A stretch of DNA of 11,093 bases from Chloroflexota bacterium (lineage in GTDB: Bacteria > Chloroflexota > Limnocylindria > Limnocylindrales > CSP1-4). The translations under genes were made by a program, and so were the position numbers. How positions within the stretch are numbered: the first letter of the stretch is position 1; each line of letters begins with the position of its first letter. The stretch lies in NCBI GenBank assembly GCA_021815005.1, contig JAKAHL010000036.1, forward strand, positions 1 to 11,093, read 5' to 3'. This document shows, piece by piece, positions 1 to 11,093 of the stretch. The notes under the pieces are model-generated. The model made no database searches. It saw nothing but the letters and a program-made list of their open reading frames with translations, and was not told where the DNA came from.

Positions 1-582
1 GAGCGGGAGGTGGCAACCCTCCTTGGCTCTCAGGCCGCGCTGGCGGTGGCCAACGCGCACCTCCTCGCGGAGGTGTCCGAGCTCGCCATCCACGACCCGC
101 TGACCGGCCTCTTCAACCGTCGGCACTTCGATGCGGCGTTGGAGTTGCTGGTCGCCCGCTGGCGGCGGGACCGCGGGCGCACTGCGCTGGCCGCGGTGAT
201 GCTCGATCTCGATCACTTCGGCGACTTCAACCGCGCGCACGGGCACCAGACCGGGGACGCGGCGCTGCGCCTCTTCGCCGGCGTGCTGCGCGAGCGGGTG
301 CGCTCATCGGACCTCGTGGCCCGCTACGGCGGCGAGGAGTTCGTGGTGGTGCTCGAGCAGTGCGACCGGGACGGCGCGCGCGCCGTGGCGGACGCGATCC
401 GGGAGACCTTTGAGGAACGGGCGATTCCGGGACCCGACGGCGTCACCCTGCATGCCACGGTGTCCGCCGGGTGCGCCGCGCTGACCCCCGCCGAGCCCAC
501 CGCGGAAGCCCTCATCCGCGCCGCGGACGAGGGGCTCTTCATGGCCAAGCGCGGCGGGCGCAACCAGGTGGTGGCCGTCTGA
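1..582 (+). CDS. GGDEF-domain diguanylate cyclase, C-terminal part (5' end outside window)
   Basis: The frame is open from base 1, so the gene begins upstream; 193 residues are visible. The first ~20 residues (LLGSQAALAVANAHL) match the last helix of a GAF-type sensor domain as usually seen just before GGDEF. The GGDEF domain follows: DPLTGLFNRR, then LDLDHFGDFN with the metal/substrate Asp, then the intact active-site signature GGEEF at 328-342. An RSSD sequence at 301-312, exactly five residues before GGEEF, is a canonical RxxD inhibitory site. The protein should therefore make cyclic di-GMP from two GTP and be subject to product inhibition. The stop is TGA at 580-582. An internal GTG at 10 is not a plausible start because it would cut the preceding helix. 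No EAL domain is visible. The domain assignment is very secure; the input signal is unknown. Confidence 0.95.
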   Translation, partial: EREVATLLGSQAALAVANAHLLAEVSELAIHDPLTGLFNRRHFDAALELLVARWRRDRGRTALAAVMLDLDHFGDFNRAHGHQTGDAALRLFAGVLRERVRSSDLVARYGGEEFVVVLEQCDRDGARAVADAIRETFEERAIPGPDGVTLHATVSAGCAALTPAEPTAEALIRAADEGLFMAKRGGRNQVVAV

Positions 583-887
583 CCGATTTCGCTTCGCCGG
601 CGGTACCTCCCGAGCATCGTCTTGCCGATGCCTGGCTGTTCGAGCTCGGCCCCGAGCCCGAGCGCGCCACGCTCGGGCCGCCATCGAGGCAGCCCGCGAG
701 CTCCGGCCGGGCGCTGGCTCGAGTCAACCTCTCCCCGCGCCTCGTCGCAGACCCGGAGCCAATCCGGGAGTGCCGTGCACGCGGCGTCAAGAGAGGCAGG
801 GCGAGAAAGGGCGAGCGCTCGGATCTTGCGGACGGGCGCGCCTGGGCGACTCGCTGAACGACCGTCGCAACACGCCTGGACCAACCC
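583..887. other. Convergent intergenic spacer without a credible gene
   Basis: This 305-bp spacer separates the plus-strand cyclase from the first minus-strand gene. The open frames crossing it on both strands encode Arg/Ala/Pro-rich strings with no domain-like pattern and are read as GC-driven shadows. The only clear structure is a GC-rich hairpin at 657-677. Confidence 0.6.
657..677. terminator. GC-rich hairpin, possible bidirectional terminator
   Basis: CCCGAGC (657-663) and GCTCGGG (671-677) form a perfect 7-bp stem with a 7-nt loop. It lies about 75 bp after the cyclase stop, between convergent genes. A nearby overlapping inverted repeat, GCTCGG-CC-CCGAGC at 644-657, could compete with it. 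There is no T-tract on either strand, so termination is inferred from position and stem strength only. Confidence 0.35.
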
Positions 888-1163
888 TCAGTCGCTGGTG
901 TGGTCGGACGGCTCCTCGTCACCGGCGGCGCGCCGCGCGAGGATCTGGCCGATGAGCGCCCAGATACCCTCGTGCCGATCATGGCCACGCAGGCGATACC
1001 ACGGCGCGAAGACGAGGTGCGCGCCAGGGGCGGGCGCGCCGAAGCGATAGTCATAGTCGCAGATCTGGCCGCTCGGGTCGCGGTTGCCGATCTCGAGCAC
1101 GGCGATCCGCTCGGGCTCGCCCGTGCCGAAGGGCCGCAGCTCCACGGTGACCCGGATCGACAT
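888..1163 (-). CDS. 91-aa hypothetical protein of mobile-element-like neighbourhood
   Basis: The start is ATG at 1163 and the stop is TGA at 888-890. A perfect GGAGGT lies 7 nt before this ATG, which favours it over the longer in-frame extension reaching 1580. That extension is Arg/Pro-rich and looks non-coding. The N-terminal half alternates in a beta-strand fashion (MSIRVTVELR, IAVLEIGNRD, DYDYRFG). The C-terminus is helical (HEGIWALIGQILARR) and ends in an acidic tail. I do not recognise a named family. The general pattern, beta strands followed by a basic HxR and a W-x-L-(I/V) helix, recalls short uncharacterised proteins carried by integrative elements; this is a loose resemblance only. 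It is probably cytoplasmic, as there is no signal peptide or membrane segment. It is the last gene of the minus-strand series. Confidence 0.75.
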   Translation of the reverse strand: MSIRVTVELRPFGTGEPERIAVLEIGNRDPSGQICDYDYRFGAPAPGAHLVFAPWYRLRGHDRHEGIWALIGQILARRAAGDEEPSDHTSD

Positions 1164-1170
1164 CGCCCCC

Positions 1171-1176
1171 ACCTCC
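1171..1176 (-). promoter_or_regulatory. Shine-Dalgarno that fixes the start of the 91-aa gene
   Basis: On the minus strand this reads GGAGGT, 7 nt before ATG at 1163. It argues against the longer reading of the same frame. Confidence 0.75.
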
Positions 1177-1255
1177 AGCCCCGATGCCCAAGGGGTGCTG
1201 ATCGACGGCCGCTGCCGCCCTCGCATCCGCAAGCCTGGGCCGCTCCGGCGGCACG

Positions 1256-1546
1256 TCAAGGGCTCCGGGAGCCACGGACACCCACCAAGCATTCGTCCTC
1301 TGCGCACAGGACCCCGATCGTGAGGCCTCGCGCACGCACGACGAACTGCCGGCCAAGCGCCACCCGGGCGGCCCTGGCCCGCCCACGCACGGTGCCCCGG
1401 AGACGCGGCGGCACGCCGTCCAGGCGGACCGCCTGCCCGGCCCCGGGAAGCAGCGCCGCGAGCGCGGCACGGAACGCCTGGCGCTTCTCGCGTCGAGCGG
1501 CGCGGGCGTGCTGCTCCCGCGCGCGCACCGCGCGGCGCCGGCGCAT
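1256..1546 (-). CDS. Basic 96-aa hypothetical protein
   Basis: The stop is TGA at 1256-1258. The start is uncertain. ATG at 1546 has GGAGG directly against it with no spacer, which is too close for normal use. An in-frame GTG at 1594 would add 16 residues. The first ~35 residues are an Arg/Ala-rich, probably helical and nucleic-acid-friendly stretch (AREQHARAARREKRQ). The C-terminal half reads as a small beta domain (GRQFVVRARG, LTIGVLCAED, ECLVGVRG). There are no recognisable catalytic or metal motifs and no membrane segment. It lies 92 bp upstream of the 91-aa gene and downstream of the Cys-rich 78-aa gene on the same strand, so co-transcription is plausible. The C-terminal half looks coding; the N-terminal half could be partly spurious. 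No function can be assigned. Confidence 0.5.
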   Translation of the reverse strand: MRRRRAVRAREQHARAARREKRQAFRAALAALLPGAGQAVRLDGVPPRLRGTVRGRARAARVALGRQFVVRARGLTIGVLCAEDECLVGVRGSRSP

Positions 1547-1637
1547 CCTCCAGGGGAACCTGCGAGCGCTGTGCGTGCATCGGCGCGCCTTCACCCAGTG
1601 ATGCCAGCCACCCAAGCCCGGCCGCGACGGCCGCCGG

Positions 1638-1874
1638 TCAGGCCGCCCGCGGCGGATCCCAGGTCCGAGTCGGGGTTGCCCCCGCCGCCTCGAGCTGCAT
1701 CCAGCAGCGCAGCGAACAGGCGTGGCGGCCATCGTGCGTGCGCAGCCACCCGGCGGGCAGGTCCACGCCGGCCTCGCGCGCCTCGTGGCGCTCGACGCTT
1801 GGGCAGGCCGGGTCATCACAGGTCCAGGTCACGCGACCACCGAACAGGCGGCCGCTGCGCGCCACCGACAGCAT
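1638..1874 (-). CDS. 78-aa Cys4 zinc-finger-like protein
   Basis: The start is ATG at 1874 and the stop is TGA at 1638-1640. Upstream on the minus strand are GGGAG close to the ATG and AAGGAG 10 nt away. The core reads WTCDDPAC (C19, C24), then LPAGWLRTHDG, then CSLRCW (C53, C57). That makes a CxxxxC plus CxxxC zinc-binding arrangement around a Gly-Trp turn. This pattern is frequent in short proteins of phages and integrative elements, where the finger is usually structural and may contact nucleic acid or protein. There is no catalytic motif, signal peptide or membrane segment. It lies 153 bp downstream of the J-domain gene on the same strand. The Cys pattern makes coding status fairly safe; the function is unknown. 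Confidence 0.7.
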   Translation of the reverse strand: MLSVARSGRLFGGRVTWTCDDPACPSVERHEAREAGVDLPAGWLRTHDGRHACSLRCWMQLEAAGATPTRTWDPPRAA

Positions 1875-2027
1875 CGCTCCCGCGCTCCTTCGCTCCGCCG
1901 ACCCGACCGGGCCTCGCCGATCGCGGAGCGGACTGTCGGCGGAACGCCTGGGCCGTCAAGAGCCAGACACCGGACCGTGGTGCCAGCACGCGCCACGGAC
2001 GGCGTGGCCCCGTCGGACCCGGATCGG

Positions 2028-2693
2028 TCAGGCGGCGATGACACGCAGGAGCAGCCATCGGGCACAGCGCGCCGTCGCGCGCACCAGGTCGCCCAGGGGG
2101 TTGTCGAGGTTGCGAGTGAGGAGGGCCCCGAGCACCAGCCAGCCGCCGGTCACGCGGGCCACGAAGGCCGGACCGTCCGGGGCGGCAACCCCGAACGCCG
2201 GGGACAGGCCCGCCACGCACGTCGCCACGACGAGCAGGACCACCCATTGCCCCACCCGATCGCAGCACAGCCAGGCCAGTGGCTGGCGCACCGAGCGCCG
2301 GCGAGGATCCGGCATCGCGGGAGCCCGGCCGGGTCGGGACGCACCCCCCGCCGCTGGCGGCGCAGCGGCCGAGGGGCGTCGGGGCGATGGAGCGGCGGGC
2401 GGCACGCTTGACGGCGCGCGCGAGCGGCAGCTGGCCGCCTCGCCGGCGGCCCGCCGGGCGACACGCTCTCGCGCGAGGTCGTAGGCAGCGCGGCGGGCCG
2501 GATCGCGCAGCACGCCCGCCGCGGCGTTGAGGCGGGCGGCCAGGGCGGTGCGCCGGGCCCGGTCGGTGGGGTCGGTGCCGAGATCGGGATGCACGCGCCG
2601 GATGCGGGCCCGGTAGGCACGGTCGATCTCGGCGGTGCTGGCCGCCGGCGGCACGCCGAGCGTCGCGTAGTGATCGGGGAGCCGGTGGTGCAT
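2028..2693 (-). CDS. Membrane-anchored J-domain (DnaJ-like) protein
   Basis: The J domain occupies residues ~7-75: DHYATLGVPP (helix I), EIDRAYRARIRRVHPD with the invariant HPD triad at 35-37, a helix III stretch (RTALAARLNAAAGVL) and the closing DPARRAAYD. The HPD loop is what stimulates Hsp70 (DnaK) ATPase, so the protein should recruit DnaK to a particular client or site. There is no Gly/Phe-rich region, Cys zinc centre or CTD substrate-binding domain, so it is not a canonical DnaJ. A Pro/Ala/Arg-rich linker (~85-135) leads to two hydrophobic segments, ~149-170 and ~176-194, and a basic amphipathic tail. This implies membrane attachment with the J domain in the cytoplasm. The start is ATG at 2693 after GAGG; GTG at 2696 is an alternative. 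It follows the FtsK-type gene on the same strand after 271 bp. Confidence 0.88.
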   Translation of the reverse strand: MHHRLPDHYATLGVPPAASTAEIDRAYRARIRRVHPDLGTDPTDRARRTALAARLNAAAGVLRDPARRAAYDLARERVARRAAGEAASCRSRAPSSVPPAAPSPRRPSAAAPPAAGGASRPGRAPAMPDPRRRSVRQPLAWLCCDRVGQWVVLLVVATCVAGLSPAFGVAAPDGPAFVARVTGGWLVLGALLTRNLDNPLGDLVRATARCARWLLLRVIAA

Positions 2694-2931
2694 CACCCCC
2701 TCAGCGTCGGCGCCCTATCCGGCGCGCGCAAGAGGTTCTGGGTCGGGTGATCTGCCCGCGGGTCGCCCGCGACGCGCCCCTGCTGGCCACCGATCGAGCT
2801 GCACCGCACAGCGCACCGCTCGTGCTGCTCCGGAGCAGTCCGGGATCCGTCCCGCGGAGCCCCCGGCGTGGGGCCATTCGCGCGCGTGCGCGCGCGAGAC
2901 GGCTGCGGGACCGACGCGGCCGGCGCCGGGA

Positions 2932-2945
2932 CCGACCCCGGTCGG
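2932..2945 (-). terminator. Short GC hairpin just after the FtsK-type gene
   Basis: CCGACC and GGTCGG are separated by two bases. They lie 20 bp past the stop of the minus-strand ATPase gene. The position suits a terminator, but the stem is short and no T-tract follows on the minus strand. Further inverted repeats lie nearby: CCGGCGCCGG at ~2920-2929 and a perfect 14-bp palindrome at 2825-2838. Confidence 0.3.
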
Positions 2946-2964
2946 CAAGGGTGCGCCTATGCGT

Positions 2965-4914
2965 TCATCGGTCGCGCTCGGCGACCCACTCGAGCGCATC
3001 GTCGGCGTCGCGCTCGTCGGCCTCCGCTCGCGCAGCGTCGTCCTCCAGATCCGCAGCGTCCTCGGCATCCGGGCCCCCTCCGGCGCGGTCCGCCCGCAGC
3101 AGGGCGTCGCGCGCCTCGGACCAGGCGTCGAAGGCGAGGCGGCGGTAGCGACCGTCGGGGACCAGGACACCCGCCCCGGAGAGGGCGCGCAGGGCCGCGT
3201 CGAGCTGGATGTTGCCCGGCGCGGTCAGGCCCTCGGAGCGGATCATCTCCGCCAGCTTCACCCTGGAGACCTCGACCGGCCCCTCGCCCCCGGCCCGCGA
3301 CCGTGCCTCGGCGCGGGCGATGAAGCGCAGCGCGGTCAGGGGCTCCAAGCGGCGCGTCTCGTACTGGGTGGGCCGGCGGGGGTGGGTCTCGTCGGGGTCG
3401 GCCTCCGGTGCGCTCGGCAGCGGGGACCCGAGGCGCTGCAGGTGGCCGGCGGCGTCGCGGCGATACTCGACCACCGGGCCGTCGAAGAGGTCGGCCCAGG
3501 GCGAGCGGTTCGGCTCGCCGGCCGGGCCGCTCGCCAGGGCGTCCGCCCCGGCGGCCACCCCCGCCGCGTGTTCCACCTGCACCGCCGCGTCGCCGGGCGC
3601 GCCCGGGTCGAGCACCACCCGGCGCACCCGTCCCGAGGGGGCGTAGGGACGCTCGCCCAGCAGCCGCGCCTCGGGCCCCAGGGCCGCCGCGCGGGCGGCC
3701 GCGCGCAGGTGGCGGGTCAGCTCGCTCGAGAGGTCGTCGGCGTCATGGGTGCGGTCCAACAGCAGGCCCTGGAAGACGCTCGTCTCGCCCGCGACGCGCA
3801 CCACTCCGCGGCCCTGCACGATGTCGCCCGCGCTGCCCACCAGGCGCGCGCGATCGGCGCTGAAGGACGCCGCGTCACCGAGCATGAGCCGCCACAGGAG
3901 ATCGGTGCCCCCCTTGGCCAGCACGATCCGGGTGTCGGCGTTGGCCAGGATGTCGGAGGGGAAGGTCACATCCCTCCCTTGCCCCTTCTTGGGTTCCTGG
4001 GCGATGAGCCAGACCCGGCCGCCCCACTTGCGTCCCACCCGCATCACGCGGGCCGCCAGGGCCGCCAGCTCGGTGGCCGCATCGGAGCCGTCCATGGCCT
4101 GTTTCCACTCGTCCACCACCACGAGCACCCGGGGCAGCGCCAGGTCCGCGCGACCCAGGCGCGTCACCAGGGCGTTCCAGGTGTCGAGGTTGGGCACCCC
4201 GTCCTCGATCTCCTGGACCGGCCCGTGCGAGCGGCGCACGTGCACCGGCGCGGTGAGCAGCGCCTGGCGCAGCGCCAGTTCGGCCTCGACCCGCCGGAAG
4301 AGCGCGAGCGTGGTGGGCAGGTCGTCGGCCAGCGGGCCGATGGCGTGGGGCAGGCGCGCGAAGGGCCCGAGATCCGCCCCCGCCAGGTCCCCCAGGGCGA
4401 GGCGCACCAGGGCCGGCGGCCGGTCGGCCACCTGGGCCAGGAGCGAGGCCACGAAGACGCTCTTTCCGCCGCCGCTCGAGCCGCCGATGATGGCGTGGGG
4501 CCAGGCGTCCGCGTCCGAGAGCAGGGGTGCGCCGCCGTGGGTGACCCCGAGCAGCAGGCGCAGCGAGCCGCGCAGGGTGTCGCGCTGCGGGCCGTAGGCG
4601 GCAGCGAACCCGGCCCGGTCGGGAACGGGGGCCTCGCGGTCCAGGATGTCCACCTGGTAGTCGCCGTCCGGGAGCACCGTGACGCGCACCTCCTGGTGCT
4701 GCGCCCGCCCCCAGCGCTCCCAGGCATCCCGGACCCAGGCATCGAGGCGCGCGGTGGGCGCGCCGTCGAGCGGGGTGCCGCGCAGGCTGCCCGCCCGATA
4801 CCGTCGCCGCCAGGCCCCGCGCACCCCGTACTCCGGGCTGCGCTCCAGGCGCAGCGGGGGTCCCAGGGGGCGCAGGGTCGGGGCGGGCAGCCCCGGAGTA
4901 CCGCTGGCCGGCAT
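2965..4914 (-). CDS. FtsK/SpoIIIE-type DNA-translocase ATPase
   Basis: 649 aa. The start is ATG at 4914, placed by GAGGAGG 6 nt upstream; the GTG at 4929 lacks such a site. Walker A is IIGGSSGGGKSV, with K151 and S152. Walker B is PRVLVVVDEWKQ, with D268 and E269; the residue after DE is Trp rather than the Phe usual in FtsK. Later come the sensor-like segments GRVWLIAQEPKKG (299-311) and the NADTRIVLAKGG region (325-336), both typical of the FtsK-SpoIIIE motor fold. Residues ~525-600 (VSRVKLAEMIRSEGL, LDAALRALSGAGVLV) look like a winged-helix. The last ~45 residues are strongly acidic. There is no membrane segment. The upstream gene, 11 bp away, is polytopic, so the pair may divide the FtsK plan of membrane anchor plus motor between two proteins. 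The likely role is pumping double-stranded DNA, for example in element transfer; no relaxase is seen. Confidence 0.9.
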   Translation of the reverse strand: MPASGTPGLPAPTLRPLGPPLRLERSPEYGVRGAWRRRYRAGSLRGTPLDGAPTARLDAWVRDAWERWGRAQHQEVRVTVLPDGDYQVDILDREAPVPDRAGFAAAYGPQRDTLRGSLRLLLGVTHGGAPLLSDADAWPHAIIGGSSGGGKSVFVASLLAQVADRPPALVRLALGDLAGADLGPFARLPHAIGPLADDLPTTLALFRRVEAELALRQALLTAPVHVRRSHGPVQEIEDGVPNLDTWNALVTRLGRADLALPRVLVVVDEWKQAMDGSDAATELAALAARVMRVGRKWGGRVWLIAQEPKKGQGRDVTFPSDILANADTRIVLAKGGTDLLWRLMLGDAASFSADRARLVGSAGDIVQGRGVVRVAGETSVFQGLLLDRTHDADDLSSELTRHLRAAARAAALGPEARLLGERPYAPSGRVRRVVLDPGAPGDAAVQVEHAAGVAAGADALASGPAGEPNRSPWADLFDGPVVEYRRDAAGHLQRLGSPLPSAPEADPDETHPRRPTQYETRRLEPLTALRFIARAEARSRAGGEGPVEVSRVKLAEMIRSEGLTAPGNIQLDAALRALSGAGVLVPDGRYRRLAFDAWSEARDALLRADRAGGGPDAEDAADLEDDAARAEADERDADDALEWVAERDR

Positions 4915-4920
4915 GGTTCG

Positions 4921-4927
4921 CCTCCTC
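4921..4927 (-). promoter_or_regulatory. Shine-Dalgarno overlapping the upstream stop, sets the ATPase start
   Basis: The minus strand reads GAGGAGG, 6 nt before ATG at 4914, with the TGA of the membrane gene embedded in the same stretch (4926-4928). This couples translation of the two genes and rules out the GTG at 4929 as the main start. Confidence 0.8.
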
Positions 4928-6533
4928 ACCAGGGCGCGTCGGCGAAGGGGCTGCCGGCCACCTCGTCGTCGGCAGCGTCCGCGTCCGCGGGTCCCGCCTC
5001 GGCCCCGGGTGCCCGACGGGCGTCGCCACGGTCGAAGACCACGAAGACGCCCACCACGCCGCCTCGCGCCGGGTCGTCGGCCACGGCTTCGGCGCGGATG
5101 TCGCCCGGGTCATGCTCGGTGTGGAGCCAGGCCAGCACCTGGGACCGGGTGAACCGACTGTGGGCGGCCACGTTGGCGGCAAGATTGGCGCTGGTGAGGC
5201 GGGCCAAGATGTCATTGGCGACCACCGGCGCGGTGCCGAGGATGTACGCGAAGTAGTCCGGCCGCGCCCAGGCCCGCAGGATGAGCAGGCGCTTGCCGAC
5301 CTCCAGCGCCGGGGGCAGCGCCGCCATCGCCAGGGCGTCGAAGGGACCCTCGTCGAGCAGCTCCGGGGGCATCCCGGCGGCGTCGCGCGCGGCGCGACTG
5401 TTGCCGTGCTGGAGGGCGTCGGTGTGCGCGGCCACGAGCAGGGCGTTGCCGATCTCGCAGAGCTCGGCGGCCGCGGGATCGTTGCGCAGGAGGTGCGCTC
5501 GCAGGAGCTGCGAGCGGGTGAGGAGGGTGCCCCTGCCAGGTCGCGCCGGTGTGCCCGGGGCCGCCGCGACCGCCGCCGCCGGGAGTTCCTCGGTCCAGAT
5601 CGAGGCCGGGCCATACAGCACCGGCCGCTCGGGGTCGCCCGCCAGCAGGGCGTGCAGGGCGGCGAGGGGGTGCCAGGGGCCAGCGCCGCCCCCCGCCGTG
5701 GCCGCCGACCCAGCGCCCGGACCGTGGGCCGCCTGCGCGGCGCGCTTGCTCGCCACCTGTGCCGTCCCGCGCTCCAAGGTCGCGCGCGGATCGGAGCCCA
5801 GGCGCGGATCGAGGGCGGCCACGCCGTAGAGGGTCCAGCGCCCCACGCCCACCAGCACCGCCCGCCCCCACGGGAGGATCCATCCCAGCACCCAGCGTGC
5901 GGCGGAGCGGAGCTGACGCGCGAAGAGAGCGCCCGCGCTCGTGGCCGGCGCGAGCGGGCGGTCGAGCCGGATGCCTGGGGCGCCGCCGCTCGGCGCGGGC
6001 AGCCCGCCCATGGGCCGGTCGGCGCGCGGCCCCCGCCCGGCCATCGCCACCGCCTGCGCCTTCGCCGGGTCGAGCCGGTCGAGCTCGCGCGTCGCCGCCG
6101 GGATGGCCAGCACCACCGTGAGCACCGCGAGGGCGCTCAACGCGAGATCGAGGAGCGAGCCGCCGATGACGTTCGGCCAGGCGGCCGGGTCCGGGCCGAA
6201 GCAGGCCACCGCCAGGAGCCCCCAGACCGCGGCACGCGCGAGGGCGCGCAGGCCGCCGACCAGGTGGGCCGTGGCGGCCCGCCGCGCGGGGCCTTCGGCG
6301 AGGATCGCCACGCGCGGGCCCGCCAGCAGCACCAGCTCGGCGAGCGCCGCCAGCGCGAAGGGGACCCACAGGAGATCGGATGCCCGGCCCAGCAGCGTGA
6401 CGAGCTCCGCCCCGCGCGCGAACCGCGGCCAGGCGACCACGCCCGCCGCGGCCGCCGCGAAGAGGGTCAGGCTGACCAGGGGACGGTTCGGGATGCCGGC
6501 CGGAATCGGCCGCGCGCTGGTCGTGGGCTGCAT
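4926..6533 (-). CDS. Polytopic membrane protein, likely partner of the FtsK-type ATPase
   Basis: 535 aa, starting at ATG 6533 with GGGAG 7 nt upstream. Four hydrophobic segments lie at ~19-36, ~53-76, ~96-113 and ~122-146, the same number as the N-terminal anchor of FtsK. A further hydrophobic or amphipathic stretch lies at ~211-240 (WVLGWILPWGRAVLVGV). An Ala/Gly-rich linker leads to a soluble C-terminal domain (~285-500) that is mainly helical, with segments such as RSQLLRAHLLRNDPAAAELC and NDILARLTSANLAANVA. An acidic Asp/Ala tail closes the protein. I recognise no enzymatic motif. The stop lies 11 bp before the ATPase ATG, inside that gene's Shine-Dalgarno, which argues for equal, coupled synthesis. 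The likely job is a membrane platform or channel for the motor; a regulator of it is possible. The family is unidentified. Confidence 0.8.
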   Translation of the reverse strand: MQPTTSARPIPAGIPNRPLVSLTLFAAAAAGVVAWPRFARGAELVTLLGRASDLLWVPFALAALAELVLLAGPRVAILAEGPARRAATAHLVGGLRALARAAVWGLLAVACFGPDPAAWPNVIGGSLLDLALSALAVLTVVLAIPAATRELDRLDPAKAQAVAMAGRGPRADRPMGGLPAPSGGAPGIRLDRPLAPATSAGALFARQLRSAARWVLGWILPWGRAVLVGVGRWTLYGVAALDPRLGSDPRATLERGTAQVASKRAAQAAHGPGAGSAATAGGGAGPWHPLAALHALLAGDPERPVLYGPASIWTEELPAAAVAAAPGTPARPGRGTLLTRSQLLRAHLLRNDPAAAELCEIGNALLVAAHTDALQHGNSRAARDAAGMPPELLDEGPFDALAMAALPPALEVGKRLLILRAWARPDYFAYILGTAPVVANDILARLTSANLAANVAAHSRFTRSQVLAWLHTEHDPGDIRAEAVADDPARGGVVGVFVVFDRGDARRAPGAEAGPADADAADDEVAGSPFADAPW

Positions 6534-6541
6534 CGCGCTGC

Positions 6542-6628
6542 TCCCTCGCTCCCCGGGCCCCGCCCCATGCGGGGGGTGCTGCCCTGGCGGGACCAGCGGA
6601 GGCTGGGCGAAGGCGACGCGAAGTCAAG
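6542..6628 (-). repeat. Leader repeat copy 1 (87 bp), before the membrane/ATPase pair
   Basis: It matches 7281-7368 at about 82 of 88 aligned positions (five substitutions and one single-base gap). Read on the minus strand it opens with CTTGACTTCGCG, a good -35-like TTGAC, and ends in AGCGAGGGA. That end forms part of the Shine-Dalgarno region of the gene at 6533. No convincing -10 follows at 17 bp. It is probably a duplicated promoter or 5' leader. Confidence 0.85.
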
Positions 6629-6694: not shown

Positions 6695-7198
6695 CTACGG
6701 CACCCGGACGCTCTGGCCCGCCACCGAGCCCTTCTGCAGCAGGGTGACGAGTCCGTCGATGGTGATCTCCTCGTCGCGGAGCCGCGCCCAGCGGGGATCG
6801 CGGAACGCGGGATAGTCCCAGCGGATCACGCCAGGAGGACCCCCGAGAGCGAGCAGGTCGTCATAGGCGTACGGGAGCAGGTGTTGGATCGCCTGATAGC
6901 TCAGGTCGATCCCGCCCTCTGCTGACCCCCCGGCGGCCGATCGAAGAGCCGGCACTGTGAGCCCGATGATCTCCAGGGCCGGCAGAAAGAGCGCACGGGC
7001 AGCCACTTCGCCCTTGACCGTCGACGCCCCAACAAGAGCGCGGATCATCTCCTTCTGGATGGCAGCCATCCTGGCGGGCGAGCTGGTGACCCCTTGGAGG
7101 TAGCGCATCATGCGCTCGAGCTCGAACTCGTGCCCCCGGAGCATGGCCAATTCTCGACCTAGCCAGGGTTTGGGGTCCCCCGCCCACGGAATTGGCAT
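6695..7198 (-). CDS. 167-aa hypothetical protein between two leader repeats
   Basis: The start is ATG at 7198, set by a perfect AAGGAGG 6 nt upstream; TTG at 7246 would add 16 residues without such a site. The stop is TAG. The protein looks soluble and mostly helical (GHEFELERMMRYLQGV, MAAIQKEMIRAL, SYQAIQHLLPYAYDDLLAL). It ends in a small domain with DEEITIDGLVTLLQKG. There are no Cys pairs, Walker motif, catalytic signature or signal peptide, and I do not recognise the family. Third codon positions are visibly more relaxed than in the neighbours (codons such as CCA, ATT, AAA, CTA, TTG, GTT, TTT, ACA, TCA), which suggests a different origin or lower expression. It sits upstream of the membrane/ATPase pair on the same strand. 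A copy of the 88-bp leader repeat lies on each side. Confidence 0.8.
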   Translation of the reverse strand: MPIPWAGDPKPWLGRELAMLRGHEFELERMMRYLQGVTSSPARMAAIQKEMIRALVGASTVKGEVAARALFLPALEIIGLTVPALRSAAGGSAEGGIDLSYQAIQHLLPYAYDDLLALGGPPGVIRWDYPAFRDPRWARLRDEEITIDGLVTLLQKGSVAGQSVRVP

Positions 7199-7204
7199 GT
7201 GCGG

Positions 7205-7211
7205 CCTCCTT
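7205..7211 (-). promoter_or_regulatory. Shine-Dalgarno deciding the start of the 167-aa gene
   Basis: The minus strand reads AAGGAGG, 6 nt before ATG at 7198. It excludes the longer TTG start at 7246. Confidence 0.8.
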
Positions 7212-7280
7212 GTTGCGCCCTTCCCAGCCTCGTTCCCGGAGTTCAACGGGGTGGTCCCGACCGACGCCGCGCGTCGGGAA

Positions 7281-7368
7281 TCCCTCGCTCCCCGGGCCCC
7301 GCCCCATGCGGAGGGTGCTTCCGCTGGCGGGACCTGCGGAGGCTGGGCGAAGGCGCCGCGATGTCAAG
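7281..7368 (-). repeat. Leader repeat copy 2 (88 bp), before the 167-aa gene
   Basis: This is the second copy of the repeat at 6542-6628, in the same orientation relative to a minus-strand gene. It begins on the minus strand with CTTGACATCGCG, a perfect TTGACA. It ends 82 bp before the ATG at 7198, whereas copy 1 ends 8 bp before its ATG. The spacing therefore differs and only copy 1 contributes to a ribosome binding site. Confidence 0.85.
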
Positions 7369-7512
7369 GGTTCGTGGCCACCCCCGCGCGCGACAGGACC
7401 GGCACAGCCGCGTTCGAGGAACCGCGGTGCCGGCGCCAGCACGCACCACTTTCTCGCGCCAGAGCGTGGGCACGCGGCCGACCCGCTGCTACACCGGTAC
7501 AGGCGACGTGGA

Positions 7513-7545
7513 TCACATCGGGTCACATGGACCCAACCCTTGACA
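7513..7545 (+). promoter_or_regulatory. Candidate -35 and operator repeats for the peptidase gene
   Basis: TCACAT occurs at 7513-7518 and again at 7523-7528, exactly one helical turn apart. A TTGACA follows at 7540-7545. The hexamer 17 bp later is AGGCTG, which is not a credible -10, so the promoter call rests on the -35 only. The start codon is 87 bp downstream of the TTGACA. Confidence 0.3.
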
Positions 7546-7617
7546 GGTGCGGACCCACGCCGAGGCTGGGCGATCGCCTCCTCGGAGATCATCGGTCACC
7601 CACCCAGGAGCGATCGC

Positions 7618-7624
7618 AGGGGAG
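7618..7624 (+). promoter_or_regulatory. Shine-Dalgarno selecting a GTG start for the peptidase
   Basis: AGGGGAG lies 8 nt before GTG at 7633. The ATG at 7625 is out of frame, and earlier in-frame starts give no signal peptide at the N-terminus. Confidence 0.65.
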
Positions 7625-7632
7625 CATGGACC

Positions 7633-9753
7633 GTGGGGGCACGCTGGATCCGCGGACTGGGTGTCGCCGGGGTGATCCTCGGCCTGGCGGTGAGCGGCGC
7701 GACGAGCCAGATCGGCGCCGGACCGCTGGTCTCGGTCTCCCGCACGATCCGTCCCCTGGTCGGCGCGTCGAGTCGCCTCGATGTGGGAGCCCTGCTGCGG
7801 ACCGGCCATCTGTCCGCCCCCGACGCGGGCGGTCCGTCATCGGTCGGACCATCGCTCCAGAGCGTCGCGCACCTCACCCATGGGACCGACCAGACCGCAA
7901 CCAGCGCCGCGGGCACCTCGCAGAACTGGTCCGGCTACATCGCCGGACCCGGGCCCTACACGAGCGCAGCCGGGACGTTCCGCGTGCCGCACCTCGCGGC
8001 GACGCCCACCGTGTCGGTGGCATCCGAGTGGGTGGGCATCGACGGCGTGGCCCCGGATGTGTCGCTGATCCAGGCCGGGGCCGACGAGCTCTACAACCCG
8101 GCCACCCAGCGGGTCTATACGCAGGCCTGGTGGGAGATCCTGCCGGCCTCCAGCGTCCCCATCCTGAGCCTGGCGGTCTCGCCCGGCGACAGCATCAGGG
8201 TGACGATCCGCCAGCTGGCCGGGGCGCAGTGGGCGATCCGCGTGAGCGACACCTCGACCGGCGGGAGCTTCACCTTCGAGCCGACCTACCGGGGCCCCGC
8301 GAGGTCGGCCGAGTGGGTCGTCGAGGCCCCCACCGACGGCACCACGGGCGAGGAATACCCGCTCGGCGCGTACCGCCCCCCGGTGCTCTTCCGCGACCTG
8401 CAGGCCGCTGGACCGGAGACCACCCTCACCCGGGTGGCGATGGTGCAGGGCGGCGCCACGGTCTCGGCGCCCTCGGCGCTGACCGCCACCGGGTTCAGCG
8501 TGTCGTATGGGGGGCCGGCTGCCGGTGGCGCGGCTGCCGACGCCACGCCCGCACCGACGACCGCGCCCGGCCTACTCGTGTACACCATCGCACCCGGGCA
8601 GCAGTTTCGCCTCATCGTGGTGGGCGGCCCGCCGGGTCTCTCGGCGGAATGGCAGGAATCGGCGGATCGGATCACCTGGACGCCCCTGGCGGCCGTGACC
8701 TTCGACGCCGCGGGGGAGGCGCCCACCACGCTCACGCCGACGGCCACGACCTACTATCGCCTCTACCTCCCGAGCCTCGCCCAGGCCGAGCCCTGGATCC
8801 TCGAGATCATCGTGGCGACGGCGACCAACACCCCGACGATCTTCACGGTGACCGCGGGTGCGCCGGCCACCCTCACCGAAGCCGGCCCGCCGAACAGCGA
8901 GTTCACCCTCGAACGCTCATTCGACGCACGGATCTGGACGGCGCTCGCGCAGCTCACCACCGATGCGACAGGCACGGCGACGTACACGTTCACGCCGGAC
9001 GCCACCGCCTACTACCGCGCGCAGTTCCCGGACAGTACCACCGCCGCCGGCCTGGGCGTCGTGCTCCCGCCCCTCTCGTCGGGGATCGTCCTGGCTGCGC
9101 CGCCGGTCATCACCTGGGGCACCGGGGCCACCCTCCGCGTCTCGGTCAACACCGGCGGCAATCGCCGGGTCGAGATCCTGGCGACCCGGGACGGCATCAC
9201 CTGGACCCGCGTTGCCGTGGCCACCACCGACGCACAGGGCGCCGCCACAGTCACCATCCGTCCGACCAGCACCGCGTGGTATCGGGCGGTGGTCGCGGAA
9301 GATCGCGGCCTGCCCGCGGAAACCAGCGACGCGATCCGCGTCGTGGTCCGCCAAGTCGTGCTGGCGGCGGGGGGTGCCGGCCAGGTGATGACGGTGCGGC
9401 GCGGAGCGACGGTGACCTTCGCGGCCATCGCTCGCCCCGACCAGGCCGGGATGCCCACCACGGCCTTTACCTTCCGCATCTTGCGCTGGACCGGCGCCCA
9501 CTGGCAGCTCTTCCGCTCGATCGTCGTGACGGCCGACGCGTTGGGGGTGGCCCGGCTCACCATGACGCTCGGCTCGAGCGGGCCCTGGTCGGGCACGGCG
9601 ATGGACGAGGCGATCCCGGACCAGGCGACCAGCGCATGGACCGCGGCCTGGCGCCTCGTGGTGCGATCGGCGGCCGCTGGGGAGCACGATCAACAGCGTG
9701 CCGGTCACTCGATCGTCGCGCGACGCGCCCTCCGCCCGTACGACGCGCCGTAG
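7633..9753 (+). CDS. Secreted family G1 (eqolisin) glutamic endopeptidase with C-terminal Ig-like modules
   Basis: 706 aa from GTG 7633 to TAG. The N-terminus is a signal peptide: basic ARWIRG, then a hydrophobic core GVAGVILGLAV, then SGA. A ~65-residue low-complexity stretch follows, probably a propeptide. The eqolisin domain is ~91-293: QNWSGYIAG (97-105), a GTFRVPHL strand, SEWVGIDG, SLIQAGAD with Q147 as the expected catalytic Gln, AWWEILPA, VSPGDSIRV, and AEWVVEAP, where E227 or E231 supplies the catalytic Glu. Family G1 enzymes are acid-acting, pepstatin-insensitive endopeptidases. After an Ala/Pro/Thr linker (294-313), about four related beta modules follow. They are marked by W349, W435, W524 and W624 and by a recurring D-A-x-G-x-A-x-x-T-x-T-P-T ... 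YYR signature; they probably serve adhesion or substrate binding. The tail is basic. The protein acts outside the cell. Confidence 0.9.
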   Translation: MGARWIRGLGVAGVILGLAVSGATSQIGAGPLVSVSRTIRPLVGASSRLDVGALLRTGHLSAPDAGGPSSVGPSLQSVAHLTHGTDQTATSAAGTSQNWSGYIAGPGPYTSAAGTFRVPHLAATPTVSVASEWVGIDGVAPDVSLIQAGADELYNPATQRVYTQAWWEILPASSVPILSLAVSPGDSIRVTIRQLAGAQWAIRVSDTSTGGSFTFEPTYRGPARSAEWVVEAPTDGTTGEEYPLGAYRPPVLFRDLQAAGPETTLTRVAMVQGGATVSAPSALTATGFSVSYGGPAAGGAAADATPAPTTAPGLLVYTIAPGQQFRLIVVGGPPGLSAEWQESADRITWTPLAAVTFDAAGEAPTTLTPTATTYYRLYLPSLAQAEPWILEIIVATATNTPTIFTVTAGAPATLTEAGPPNSEFTLERSFDARIWTALAQLTTDATGTATYTFTPDATAYYRAQFPDSTTAAGLGVVLPPLSSGIVLAAPPVITWGTGATLRVSVNTGGNRRVEILATRDGITWTRVAVATTDAQGAATVTIRPTSTAWYRAVVAEDRGLPAETSDAIRVVVRQVVLAAGGAGQVMTVRRGATVTFAAIARPDQAGMPTTAFTFRILRWTGAHWQLFRSIVVTADALGVARLTMTLGSSGPWSGTAMDEAIPDQATSAWTAAWRLVVRSAAAGEHDQQRAGHSIVARRALRPYDAP

Positions 9754-9819
9754 CTTCGTCGGAACAGGGACCTGGACAAGGACACCCGTGTTGGGGCGAA
9801 GAGCGGCGAAACCGGGGTC

Positions 9820-9832
9820 GTAGCAAAGCTAC
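9820..9832. terminator. Small hairpin between convergent genes
   Basis: GTAGC-AAA-GCTAC forms a perfect 5-bp stem with a 3-nt loop. It lies 67 bp after the peptidase stop and 51 bp after the end of the facing zinc-finger gene. The short stem and absent T-tract make a terminator role only possible. Confidence 0.25.
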
Positions 9833-9882
9833 CGAGGGCGCTCGCGTTGGAACGGGCACCCGCCCGGGGGAGGCGGCGCCGC

Positions 9883-10143
9883 TCAGGCGGCCGGGCGGTC
9901 CGCGTGGCCGGTCCGGCGGGCGGCGGCGGCGCAGGCCCGCGAGCAGAAGCGCCCGCAGCGACCGCCCGCCCGGCGCAGTTCGGCGGCGTCGGTCTCGAAG
10001 GCACGCCCGCACCAGGCGCAGGTGCGGGTCACCCGGCCGCCGTGCCCGAGCAGCCCGCCGAGCCGGCCCGAACAGGCACGCGAGCAGGTGCGCCGACCAC
10101 CGGGCCTCGGACCCCCGCAGACCTCGCAGCGCGGCCCGTCCAA
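9883..10143 (-). CDS. Double zinc-finger protein, or C-terminal half of a frameshifted gene
   Basis: This 86-residue frame opens with TTG at 10143 and stops with TGA at 9883-9885. It carries two fingers of the same plan. The first is C6-x-x-C9 with C20-x-x-x-C24 (CEVCGG ... RTCSRAC). The second is C42-x-x-C45 with C67-x-x-x-C71 (CAWCGRAFE ... RFCSRAC), with an extra C63. The motif CxxCGxxF ... RFCSxxC followed by Ala/Arg is widespread in short bacterial and phage zinc-finger proteins, often joined to HNH-type nucleases. The TTG start has only a weak AGGG at 9 nt. The frame begins exactly where the preceding finger protein, read in another frame, loses its protein-like character. It may therefore be the C-terminal part of that protein after a one-base shift, rather than a separate gene. 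The Cys pattern makes coding nearly certain. Confidence 0.75.
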   Translation of the reverse strand: MDGPRCEVCGGPRPGGRRTCSRACSGRLGGLLGHGGRVTRTCAWCGRAFETDAAELRRAGGRCGRFCSRACAAAARRTGHADRPAA

Positions 10144-10519
10144 CGTACGCCGCCCTGGCGGATTCGCGGCCCGCCTTCGCGCACGGCGTGCACAGCCAGC
10201 GCACGGTCCCCGCCTCGTAGTCGGTCACGAAGGGGCGCACGTCGGCGCTGGTGCCGCAGCCGGCACAGGGCTCGGGGACCCGGCCGGCCAGGATGGCGTC
10301 CCGGCGGGCCGCCCGCTCGGGGAACCGGCGCCGCCAGGCGTCGGCGCTGCGCCGGCGGATGGCGGCCTGCTCGTCGGGTGTCTTGCGCTCCCAGTGGGCG
10401 ATCCCCTGGGCGCGGCGCTCGGCGCGGATGGCGGCCTGCTCGTCGGGCGTCTTGCGCTCCCAGCGGCAGGCCGGGCATCCCCGATGGAAGTGATCGTGCG
10501 TGGCGTGCGAGGTGACCAT
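10142..10519 (-). CDS. Degenerate HNH-like zinc-finger protein, frame runs on without its own stop
   Basis: The start is ATG at 10519, with GGGAG 7 nt before it. The credible part is ~126 residues. It comprises an N-terminal CPAC (C15, C18), two copies of a charged helix WERKTPDEQAAIR, and a finger EPCAGCGTSADV ... TDYEAGTVRWLCTPC (C85, C88, C110, C113). The finger matches small HNH/zinc-ribbon proteins with the CxxCG ... H-H-x-D-Y ... V-R-W-L-C-x-x-C-H scheme. Here the expected His positions are Phe-Val (FVTDY) and Ala (CAKAGRE), so metal binding is kept while nuclease chemistry is probably lost. There is no stop near the domain end. The frame stays open to 9557, through the double-finger frame and into the antisense of the peptidase, where it becomes Arg/Pro-rich. 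A one-base indel near 10142 joining it to the next frame is the likeliest explanation. Confidence 0.65.
10356..10463 (-). repeat. Two 39-bp in-frame repeats inside the HNH-like gene
   Basis: Copies at 10356-10394 and 10425-10463 differ at one base and are 69 bp (23 codons) apart. Each encodes WERKTPDEQAAIR, so the duplication is in frame and makes two successive charged helices. Confidence 0.9.
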
Positions 10520-10559
10520 CCCGCGGCTCCCGTGTGGGCCGGCCGTGCGCCGGATGCGG

Positions 10560-10588
10560 GATGGTCGGCCGGGCCGCCCAGAAGTCAA
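10560..10588 (-). promoter_or_regulatory. Candidate promoter of the HNH-like gene
   Basis: On the minus strand TTGACT (10588-10583) is followed after 17 bp by ACCATC (10565-10560). The -35 is good and the -10 is weak. Transcription would begin ~35 bp before the ATG at 10519. Confidence 0.35.
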
Positions 10589-10600
10589 GCTTCGGCGATT

Positions 10601-10690
10601 CACGCCTCCCGACCCCTGGTGGGGAGGGAGGCGTGGGGTTCGGGACCCGGATTCACGTCCTCCCGACCCCTTGTGGGGAGGGAGGACGTG
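10601..10690. repeat. Two tandem REP-like hairpins with compensatory stem changes
   Basis: Hairpin 1 (10601-10635) pairs CACGCCTCCC with GGGAGGCGTG, then a GA/A internal bulge, then CCCC-TGGT-GGGG. Hairpin 2 (10654-10690) has the same plan with CACGTCCTCCC and GGGAGGACGTG, then CCCC-TTGT-GGGG. The two outer stems differ but both arms change together. Between them GGGTT-CGG-GACCC (10636-10648) forms a small third hairpin. They lie just upstream of the candidate promoter for the HNH-like gene, in non-coding sequence. Confidence 0.85.
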
Positions 10691-10738
10691 GGACTCTCCG
10701 GCAGCTTGAAGGGCGTTGCGCAAAGTCTCACTACTCAT

Positions 10739-10796
10739 CAACGCCCCCCGGAGGGGGCGTTGAGAGTTGAGAGTTTGCCGACGCCCCGGTGAGAGT
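10739..10796. promoter_or_regulatory. Strong hairpin with alternative pairing and three TGAGAGT repeats
   Basis: CAACGCCCCC (10739-10748) and GGGGGCGTTG (10753-10762) form a perfect 10-bp stem with loop CGGA. The 3' arm, GGGGCGTTG (10754-10762), can instead pair with CGACGCCCC at 10779-10787 (nine pairs, one of them G-U). TGAGAGT occurs at 10761, 10768 and 10790. There is no run of T after the stem, so it is not a standard terminator in either direction. Confidence 0.55.
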
Positions 10797-10897
10797 TGGA
10801 GTTCTCGGCGACCGGCCGGGTGGATCGCATCGCCCAGCTCGGCCGTGCCGGCCACCGGCGCCCACCGACCGAATCCGAGCGATTTGCGCGCATTGGC

Positions 10898-10926
10898 TTG
10901 ACAAGCCGGGAAACCTGCCCTCCATC
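10898..10926 (+). promoter_or_regulatory. Candidate promoter for the gene at 10974
   Basis: A perfect TTGACA (10898-10903) is followed after 17 bp by TCCATC (10921-10926), a weak -10. The -35 sits inside an inverted repeat GGCTT-GAC-AAGCC (10895-10907), which may be an operator. The ATG is 47 bp beyond the -10. Confidence 0.4.
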
Positions 10927-10973
10927 CGCCCAGCAACCGCCAGGCCCGCCGCTGACGGATACGGAGCACCGAG

Positions 10974-11093
10974 ATGAGCGCACCCCCCGTCCCTGCATCC
11001 GACTACCGAGCGCAGCTCGAGCGATCCCTGGTCAGCATCGTGCTGTGGAGTGGCGCCGACTGGGAGCGCGCCGCCCGCGCGATCGGCCCCGAG
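10974..11093 (+). CDS. Hypothetical protein, N-terminal 40 residues (3' end outside window)
   Basis: The ATG at 10974 has GGAG 9 nt upstream and a candidate TTGACA promoter further up. The visible 40 residues begin MSAPPVPASDYRAQLERSL and continue with a hydrophobic/helical IVLWSGADWERAARAI. There is no signal peptide, Cys pair or catalytic motif in this fragment. The frame is open to the window edge. Too little is present to name a family. Confidence 0.6.
   Translation, partial: MSAPPVPASDYRAQLERSLVSIVLWSGADWERAARAIGPE

Follow-up and report, generated by a model that had tools for sequence, protein, structure and literature searches.

TcpA, the coupling protein of the Clostridium plasmid pCW3, has transmembrane (TM) segments of its own, and in the TcpA 46-104 mutant, from which they are removed, transfer is described as persisting at reduced frequency (PMC7431656, PMC7434980). 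One account reports the TcpA family for Firmicutes only, next to relaxases of the rolling-circle type (PMC5357655). In plasmid pIP501, the gene of the membrane-associated protein TraI directly precedes that of the motor, TraJ, which TraI is presumed to recruit; TraJ itself is described as VirD4-like, binding single-stranded but not double-stranded DNA (dsDNA) and acting with a relaxase (PMC4981023). Reviews also speak of coupling proteins that lack TM segments and have membrane partners and of TraG-TraJ pairs (PMC7431656, PMC7434980), and of acidic C-terminal regions in coupling proteins (PMC7434980). In Streptomyces, TraB is presented as the single plasmid protein needed to transfer double-stranded plasmid DNA, and the membrane protein SpdB2 interacts with it (PMC4170104). 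Here, we describe a gene pair in an 11,093-bp stretch of Chloroflexota DNA (the window), in which a motor of the FtsK/TcpA branch is encoded directly behind a membrane protein. We consider it to be a two-protein, membrane-tethered, ATP-driven dsDNA pump of a mobile module, with a probability of roughly 0.6.

The window is the complete contig C13 of a draft genome of 2.05 Mb (317 contigs, 72% complete), and the two genes are as follows:

4926..6533, minus strand: membrane partner, 535 aa
2965..4914, minus strand: FtsK/TcpA-type motor, 649 aa from its ATG; a GTG start at 4929 is possible

The stop codon of the upstream gene and the ATG of the motor are 11 bases apart (...CCCTGG TGA GGAGGCGAACC ATG), and the GAGG/GGAGG Shine-Dalgarno sequence of the motor overlaps that stop. 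Starting from the alternative GTG, the motor would have 654 aa and its gene would overlap the upstream stop by 4 bp. When re-read in the sequence, the coordinates, the junction and the motifs given by the initial annotation were all found to be right.

The motor belongs to the FtsK_SpoIIIE superfamily. Its match to the Pfam model (PF01580; 56.8 bits, E 2.9e-15, cut-off 24) is beyond chance, and it carries both a Walker A (GGSSGGGKS) and a Walker B (VVVDEW) motif; PF01580 was found in all 22 family motors (E up to 0.5). The tryptophan following the Walker B DE, singled out early as odd, is a mark of the family: D-E-W-K is invariant in 22/22 members, the window motor counted in, whereas ordinary FtsKs have DEL there (11/11 in one set, and all six rows shown of the 26 in another). 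With a 19-residue hydropathy window and a cut-off of 1.6, no TM segment was called in the window motor, as had been claimed for it, and none in 21 of the 22 family members; the single hit in P0017 (566-584) falls within the C-terminal domain. The protein comprises an N-terminal domain (about 14-114), a RecA core (about 119-420), a disordered linker (452-506), a winged helix (517-611) and an acidic tail. The structure model agrees with the suspected winged-helix-like C-terminus, predicting the order H525-542, H551-560, H568-580, E584-587, E590-593, H598-611 (mean pLDDT 79-91 per 10-residue block), followed by a disordered tail (611-649). The motor is nevertheless not FtsK proper: compared with FtsK/SpoIIIE, it has no fused TM domain, it has DEW instead of DEL, FtsK_alpha (PF17854) and Ftsk_gamma (PF09397) were detected in none of the 22 motors (E up to 0.5), and its winged helix comes from structure prediction only.

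In fold searches with the motor, FtsK provided the closest structural core. The model has its own N-terminal domain, read from its secondary structure as beta-beta-alpha-beta-beta-alpha; TcpA matches over the cytosolic part with this domain included, whereas the FtsK rows begin only at model residues 67-99. The N-terminal TM segments of TcpA have no counterpart in the window motor by hydropathy.

The membrane partner begins with four TM segments, three of them clear and one weak, and continues with a helical middle, a soluble C-terminal domain (about 300-510) and an acidic tail with an SPF-type motif at its end. By hydropathy, segments 18-36, 54-72 and 126-144 pass in the window protein. The fourth (about 93-111) fails there but passes in 15/16 relatives, and a low-confidence model shows a helix at 82-112. 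The first segment passes in only 4/16 relatives, all four N-terminal segments together pass in 4/16, and an extra hydrophobic segment lies between 227 and 308 in 8/16. Thus the four segments initially counted are three clear ones in this protein, and four is a family-level estimate only. Nor is a four-segment platform the conserved part, since a distant partner of 321 aa has 2 TM segments and is homologous in the C-terminal domain alone. The soluble domain was rightly called unrecognised, as it matched nothing in Pfam, NCBIfam, PHROG, PADLOC or PDB sequences.

Motor and partner are adjacent at all three loci that could be read on both sides, and at each of them (3/3) a motor gene without TM segments stands directly behind the membrane-protein gene: the window; C26, a second copy in the same draft genome (64% motor and 52% partner identity to the window); and G036, a genome of the same family, whose motor is 43% identical to that of the window. 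Three more database pairs lie on longest contigs of equal size (P0002/P0042, 11,791; P0003/P0041, 4,517; P0005/P0046, 6,422), which suggests that these genes are adjacent as well, while in G066 the partner gene reaches the end of a 3.2-kb contig. The database searches for relatives of both proteins scored only the 8000 candidates that had the most words in common. The partner search in 177 class genomes missed the known G036 partner, and absence of partner matches there is therefore weak evidence; a match in G099, one of 3/177 genomes (E 7.4e-4), was rejected as spurious, having an in-frame stop and lying antisense to another predicted gene.

The initial annotation described the pair as a split FtsK forming a two-component pump. 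We did find an FtsK-family motor that lacks TM segments, is coupled to a membrane gene and has a patchy distribution; the split is too literal. A division of FtsK between its alpha and beta domains had been prompted by FtsK rows in the membrane-protein fold searches. It was not kept: the motor brings an N-terminal domain of its own, the one matched by TcpA, and profile comparisons revealed no sequence link between the membrane protein and FtsK. Compared with the alpha region of Chloroflexota FtsKs (26 sequences from 30 loci), the C-terminal domain of the membrane protein did no better than controls, with 86/100 column shuffles scoring equal or higher and the reversed alignment also higher. The membrane protein reached a probability of 2 against the whole FtsK alignment, in the TM region only, and the motor N-terminal domain reached 1.4 against FtsK alpha in the same profile test, which had no positive control at such distance and so does not exclude a fold relation to FtsK alpha.

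The two-gene design is unusual in detail, with known parallels. The nearest layout is that of TraI/TraJ of pIP501 as described, with a membrane-protein gene just upstream of a motor gene lacking TM segments; the motor here, however, is of the FtsK/TcpA branch, and the two are likened by description and not by sequence. Compared with TcpA, the pair has its TM segments on a gene of their own and a winged helix behind the motor, and no relaxase turned up in the DNA read. TraB with SpdB2 offers a further likeness, an FtsK-homologous dsDNA pump that recognises DNA repeats and has an interacting membrane protein (PMC4170104), but Tra and SpdB of pIJ101 show no detectable sequence relation to our pair (hhalign probability 10.7 and 0.1, from single sequences and hence a weak test). 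TdtA, an FtsK-HerA ATPase, belongs to the 14.9-kb element ICEth1 of Thermus, which has restriction-modification (R-M) genes adjoining tdtA and tRNA-derived repeats at its ends; the account of it mentions no pairing with a membrane gene, and it too is likened by description, not by sequence (PMC5365140).

It is from the pIP501, TcpA and TraB/SpdB2 parallels that we favour a tethered dsDNA pump. The downstream gene encodes a RecA-type ATPase which, going by its family, should act as a ring around DNA; motors of the FtsK/TcpA type work as rings on DNA. Its winged helix probably reads or binds DNA, and its acidic tail may contact other proteins. The product of the upstream gene would keep the ring at the membrane, and its conserved C-terminal domain and tail, rather than the number of TM segments, probably dock the motor. 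That TcpA can lose its TM segments and still bring about transfer, if at a lower frequency, makes a separable anchor plausible. The most likely task would be to pump the element's dsDNA across the membrane or along it, for transfer or spreading, like TraB/SpdB2 or a TcpA-type coupling protein; transfer taken by itself is a tentative assignment, to which we give somewhat less than even odds. Should this reading hold, the FtsK/TcpA branch would have evolved the layout of separate anchor and soluble motor that is also described for a VirD4-like coupling protein. For Chloroflexota, where the searched literature shows little such machinery, the pair would then be a compact candidate for DNA transfer, and its separate genes make it testable which functions of an FtsK-type pump need covalent membrane attachment. 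Among the open-licence papers listed by the literature searches, no title or abstract opening dealt with this family or with a two-gene FtsK/TcpA pump in Chloroflexota.

The genes on the minus strand are transcribed in the order 167-aa gene, membrane-protein gene, motor gene, J-domain gene, 91-aa gene. The other features of the window are:

888..1163, minus strand: 91-aa protein, function not assigned; an 89% identical copy adjoins the C26 module
2028..2693, minus strand: J-domain protein, 3' of the motor, with one TM segment and the HPD motif retained
6695..7198, minus strand: 167-aa protein, function not assigned, upstream of the membrane gene and not in the C26 copy
845..1176, no strand: left conserved block, DNA 90% identical between window and C26
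7330..7765, no strand: right conserved block, 95% identical to the C26 contig end, with the divergent intergenic region and the peptidase gene start
6551..6628, no strand: direct repeat copy 1, immediately upstream of the membrane gene
7291..7368, no strand: direct repeat copy 2, on the upstream side of the 167-aa gene
7633-9753, plus strand: Peptidase_A4 (glutamic peptidase), secreted-looking (Pfam 88 bits), divergent to the module

The distribution of the motor is patchy. At E <= 1e-30, it matched in 2/177 class genomes and, out of a sample of 400 from the phylum, in the same 2; a pattern scan run on genome contigs, outside which the window's own genome may lie, returned one relative, in G036. 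Between the two conserved blocks, window and C26 are about 70% identical where alignable. Beyond the left block, their DNA is unrelated except for window 780-843, and a GGDEF gene in the window stands where C26 has a DUF3626 gene. In G006, other genes follow a GGDEF homologue (71% identical), and the similarity in DNA ends at window 586, four bases past the stop codon, a weak support for mobility from one relative. The G036 pair lies in a stretch of 63.6% GC, compared with 69.0% in the other parts of the 60 kb read, and a tRNA-Thr gene marks the edge of this island. The module is likely mobile, and it is rare in Chloroflexota and probably horizontally acquired, although two alleles in one draft genome could also stem from a mixed-strain assembly. 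The gene calls for the neighbourhoods were mechanical or home-made, and a tblastx comparison, swamped by GC-rich noise, was not used.

The same distribution bears on whether the pair is instead an accessory translocase that helps to segregate or maintain DNA, through partition of the element or the chromosome, rather than to transfer it between cells, with a partner that only positions the motor. FtsK is after all the closest structural core, the predicted winged helix sits where FtsK has its gamma domain, and with canonical FtsK_alpha proteins in 185/201 phylum genomes such a translocase would be an extra system. However, 175/177 class genomes have no motor match at E <= 1e-30, the left neighbours differ between window and C26 while G036 has the pair at another locus, and PF17854 and PF09397 were undetected in the motors; we regard a segregation role as unlikely. 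The window's draft genome gave no FtsK_alpha match even at E 10, most simply because it is incomplete; the module is probably additional to the host FtsK and not that FtsK itself.

The surroundings in G036, where HsdM/HsdS flank the pair on one side and a DUF433/PIN pair on the other, could likewise point to an ATPase of anti-phage defence or DNA processing that works with adjoining restriction or other genes. PADLOC matches to mad8 (37.8 bits) and SspH (33.1 bits), and HerA defence complexes lower down the fold list, agree with this. Yet the PADLOC matches are confined to the shared ATPase part, the genes scanned next to the window and C26 copies included no recognised nuclease or R-M gene, and ICEth1, as described with R-M genes next to tdtA (PMC5365140), shows that this context fits a transfer element too. 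We consider a defence role improbable.

Several observations weigh against a mobile, tethered pump. The membrane-protein model is poor (pLDDT 47.5). No relatives were found among the viral contigs, phages or plasmids searched. The right flank with the peptidase start is common to window and C26, so that only their left neighbours differ, and the G036 island lies on the 5' side of the tRNA, an unusual arrangement. Genes for a relaxase, a recombinase, a mating pore or replication were recognised neither in the window (11.1 kb) nor in C26 (10.3 kb) nor in the G036 island (about 10.5 kb, its contig beginning inside the island), and no TcpA-type neighbours (relaxase, conjugation genes) were recognised among the scanned genes of these stretches of about 10-11 kb each. 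No att repeats were found in the window or G036 stretches compared: there were no repeats of at least 13 bases between window 561-1200 and 7201-11093, none of at least 16 bases between G036 1-5300 and 8201-12000, and no tRNA-Thr copies of at least 15 bases elsewhere in the 60 kb of G036. The proposal that the pair is the transfer apparatus of an integrative element thus found no relaxase, recombinase or att site on its side in the DNA read, which amounts to far below 30 kb each side.

Finally, EssC/EccC structures are on a par with TcpA by Z score (27.0, 26.9), which raises the prospect of a protein-secretion motor of the type VII kind. Type VII EccC and EssC have several FtsK domains in tandem. 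The motor has a single PF01580 stretch, with one ATPase domain and a predicted winged helix, and its EccCa score of 32.1 bits is far under the cut-off of 509.15. In addition, the EccC/EssC alignments begin at about model 94-98 and omit the N-terminal domain that TcpA covers, and Pfam recognised no WXG100 or other type VII family among the scanned genes. A secretion motor is thus very improbable. Readings of the pair as a type VII secretion, SpdB/TraB or defence system were each considered and given less weight, and the tethered dsDNA pump remains our preferred explanation.

The neighbours of the pair showed further features. The J-domain protein has a counterpart with a TM segment at the same position in C26 (L006 5417-6085, minus strand; 37% identical), and none was recognised among the G036 island genes. 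The 91-aa protein had no match elsewhere in the 177 class genomes at E <= 0.001 save a marginal one in G090, one of 2/177 genomes, which was not counted (32% identity, E 7.8e-4). The two direct repeats bracket the 167-aa gene, and the C26 copy has a single repeat and lacks the gene, as would fit its loss (or gain) through recombination between the repeats. The 12-mer GAGGCTGGGCGA occurs in three exact copies close to module gene starts (window 6599, 7339 and 7562) and, with up to one mismatch, in four (the fourth at 793; 0.25 expected); it recurs at L006 9876 and 10098 and at L024 1817, and with one mismatch at L024 541, and is a possible operator. The Peptidase_A4 protein has a hydrophobic N-terminus and a long C-terminal part, and at E <= 1e-60 it matched in 1/101 family genomes searched, the window's own. 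Beyond it lie genes for small Cys-rich (zinc-ribbon-like) proteins at 9883-10143 and about 10130-10497 (both minus strand), with only sub-threshold Pfam hits; the first shares 71.5% DNA identity with L024 272-557, a stretch upstream of the gene for the G066 partner. Two 27-bp repeats, 96% identical and 54 bp apart, are found at 10605-10631 and 10659-10685.

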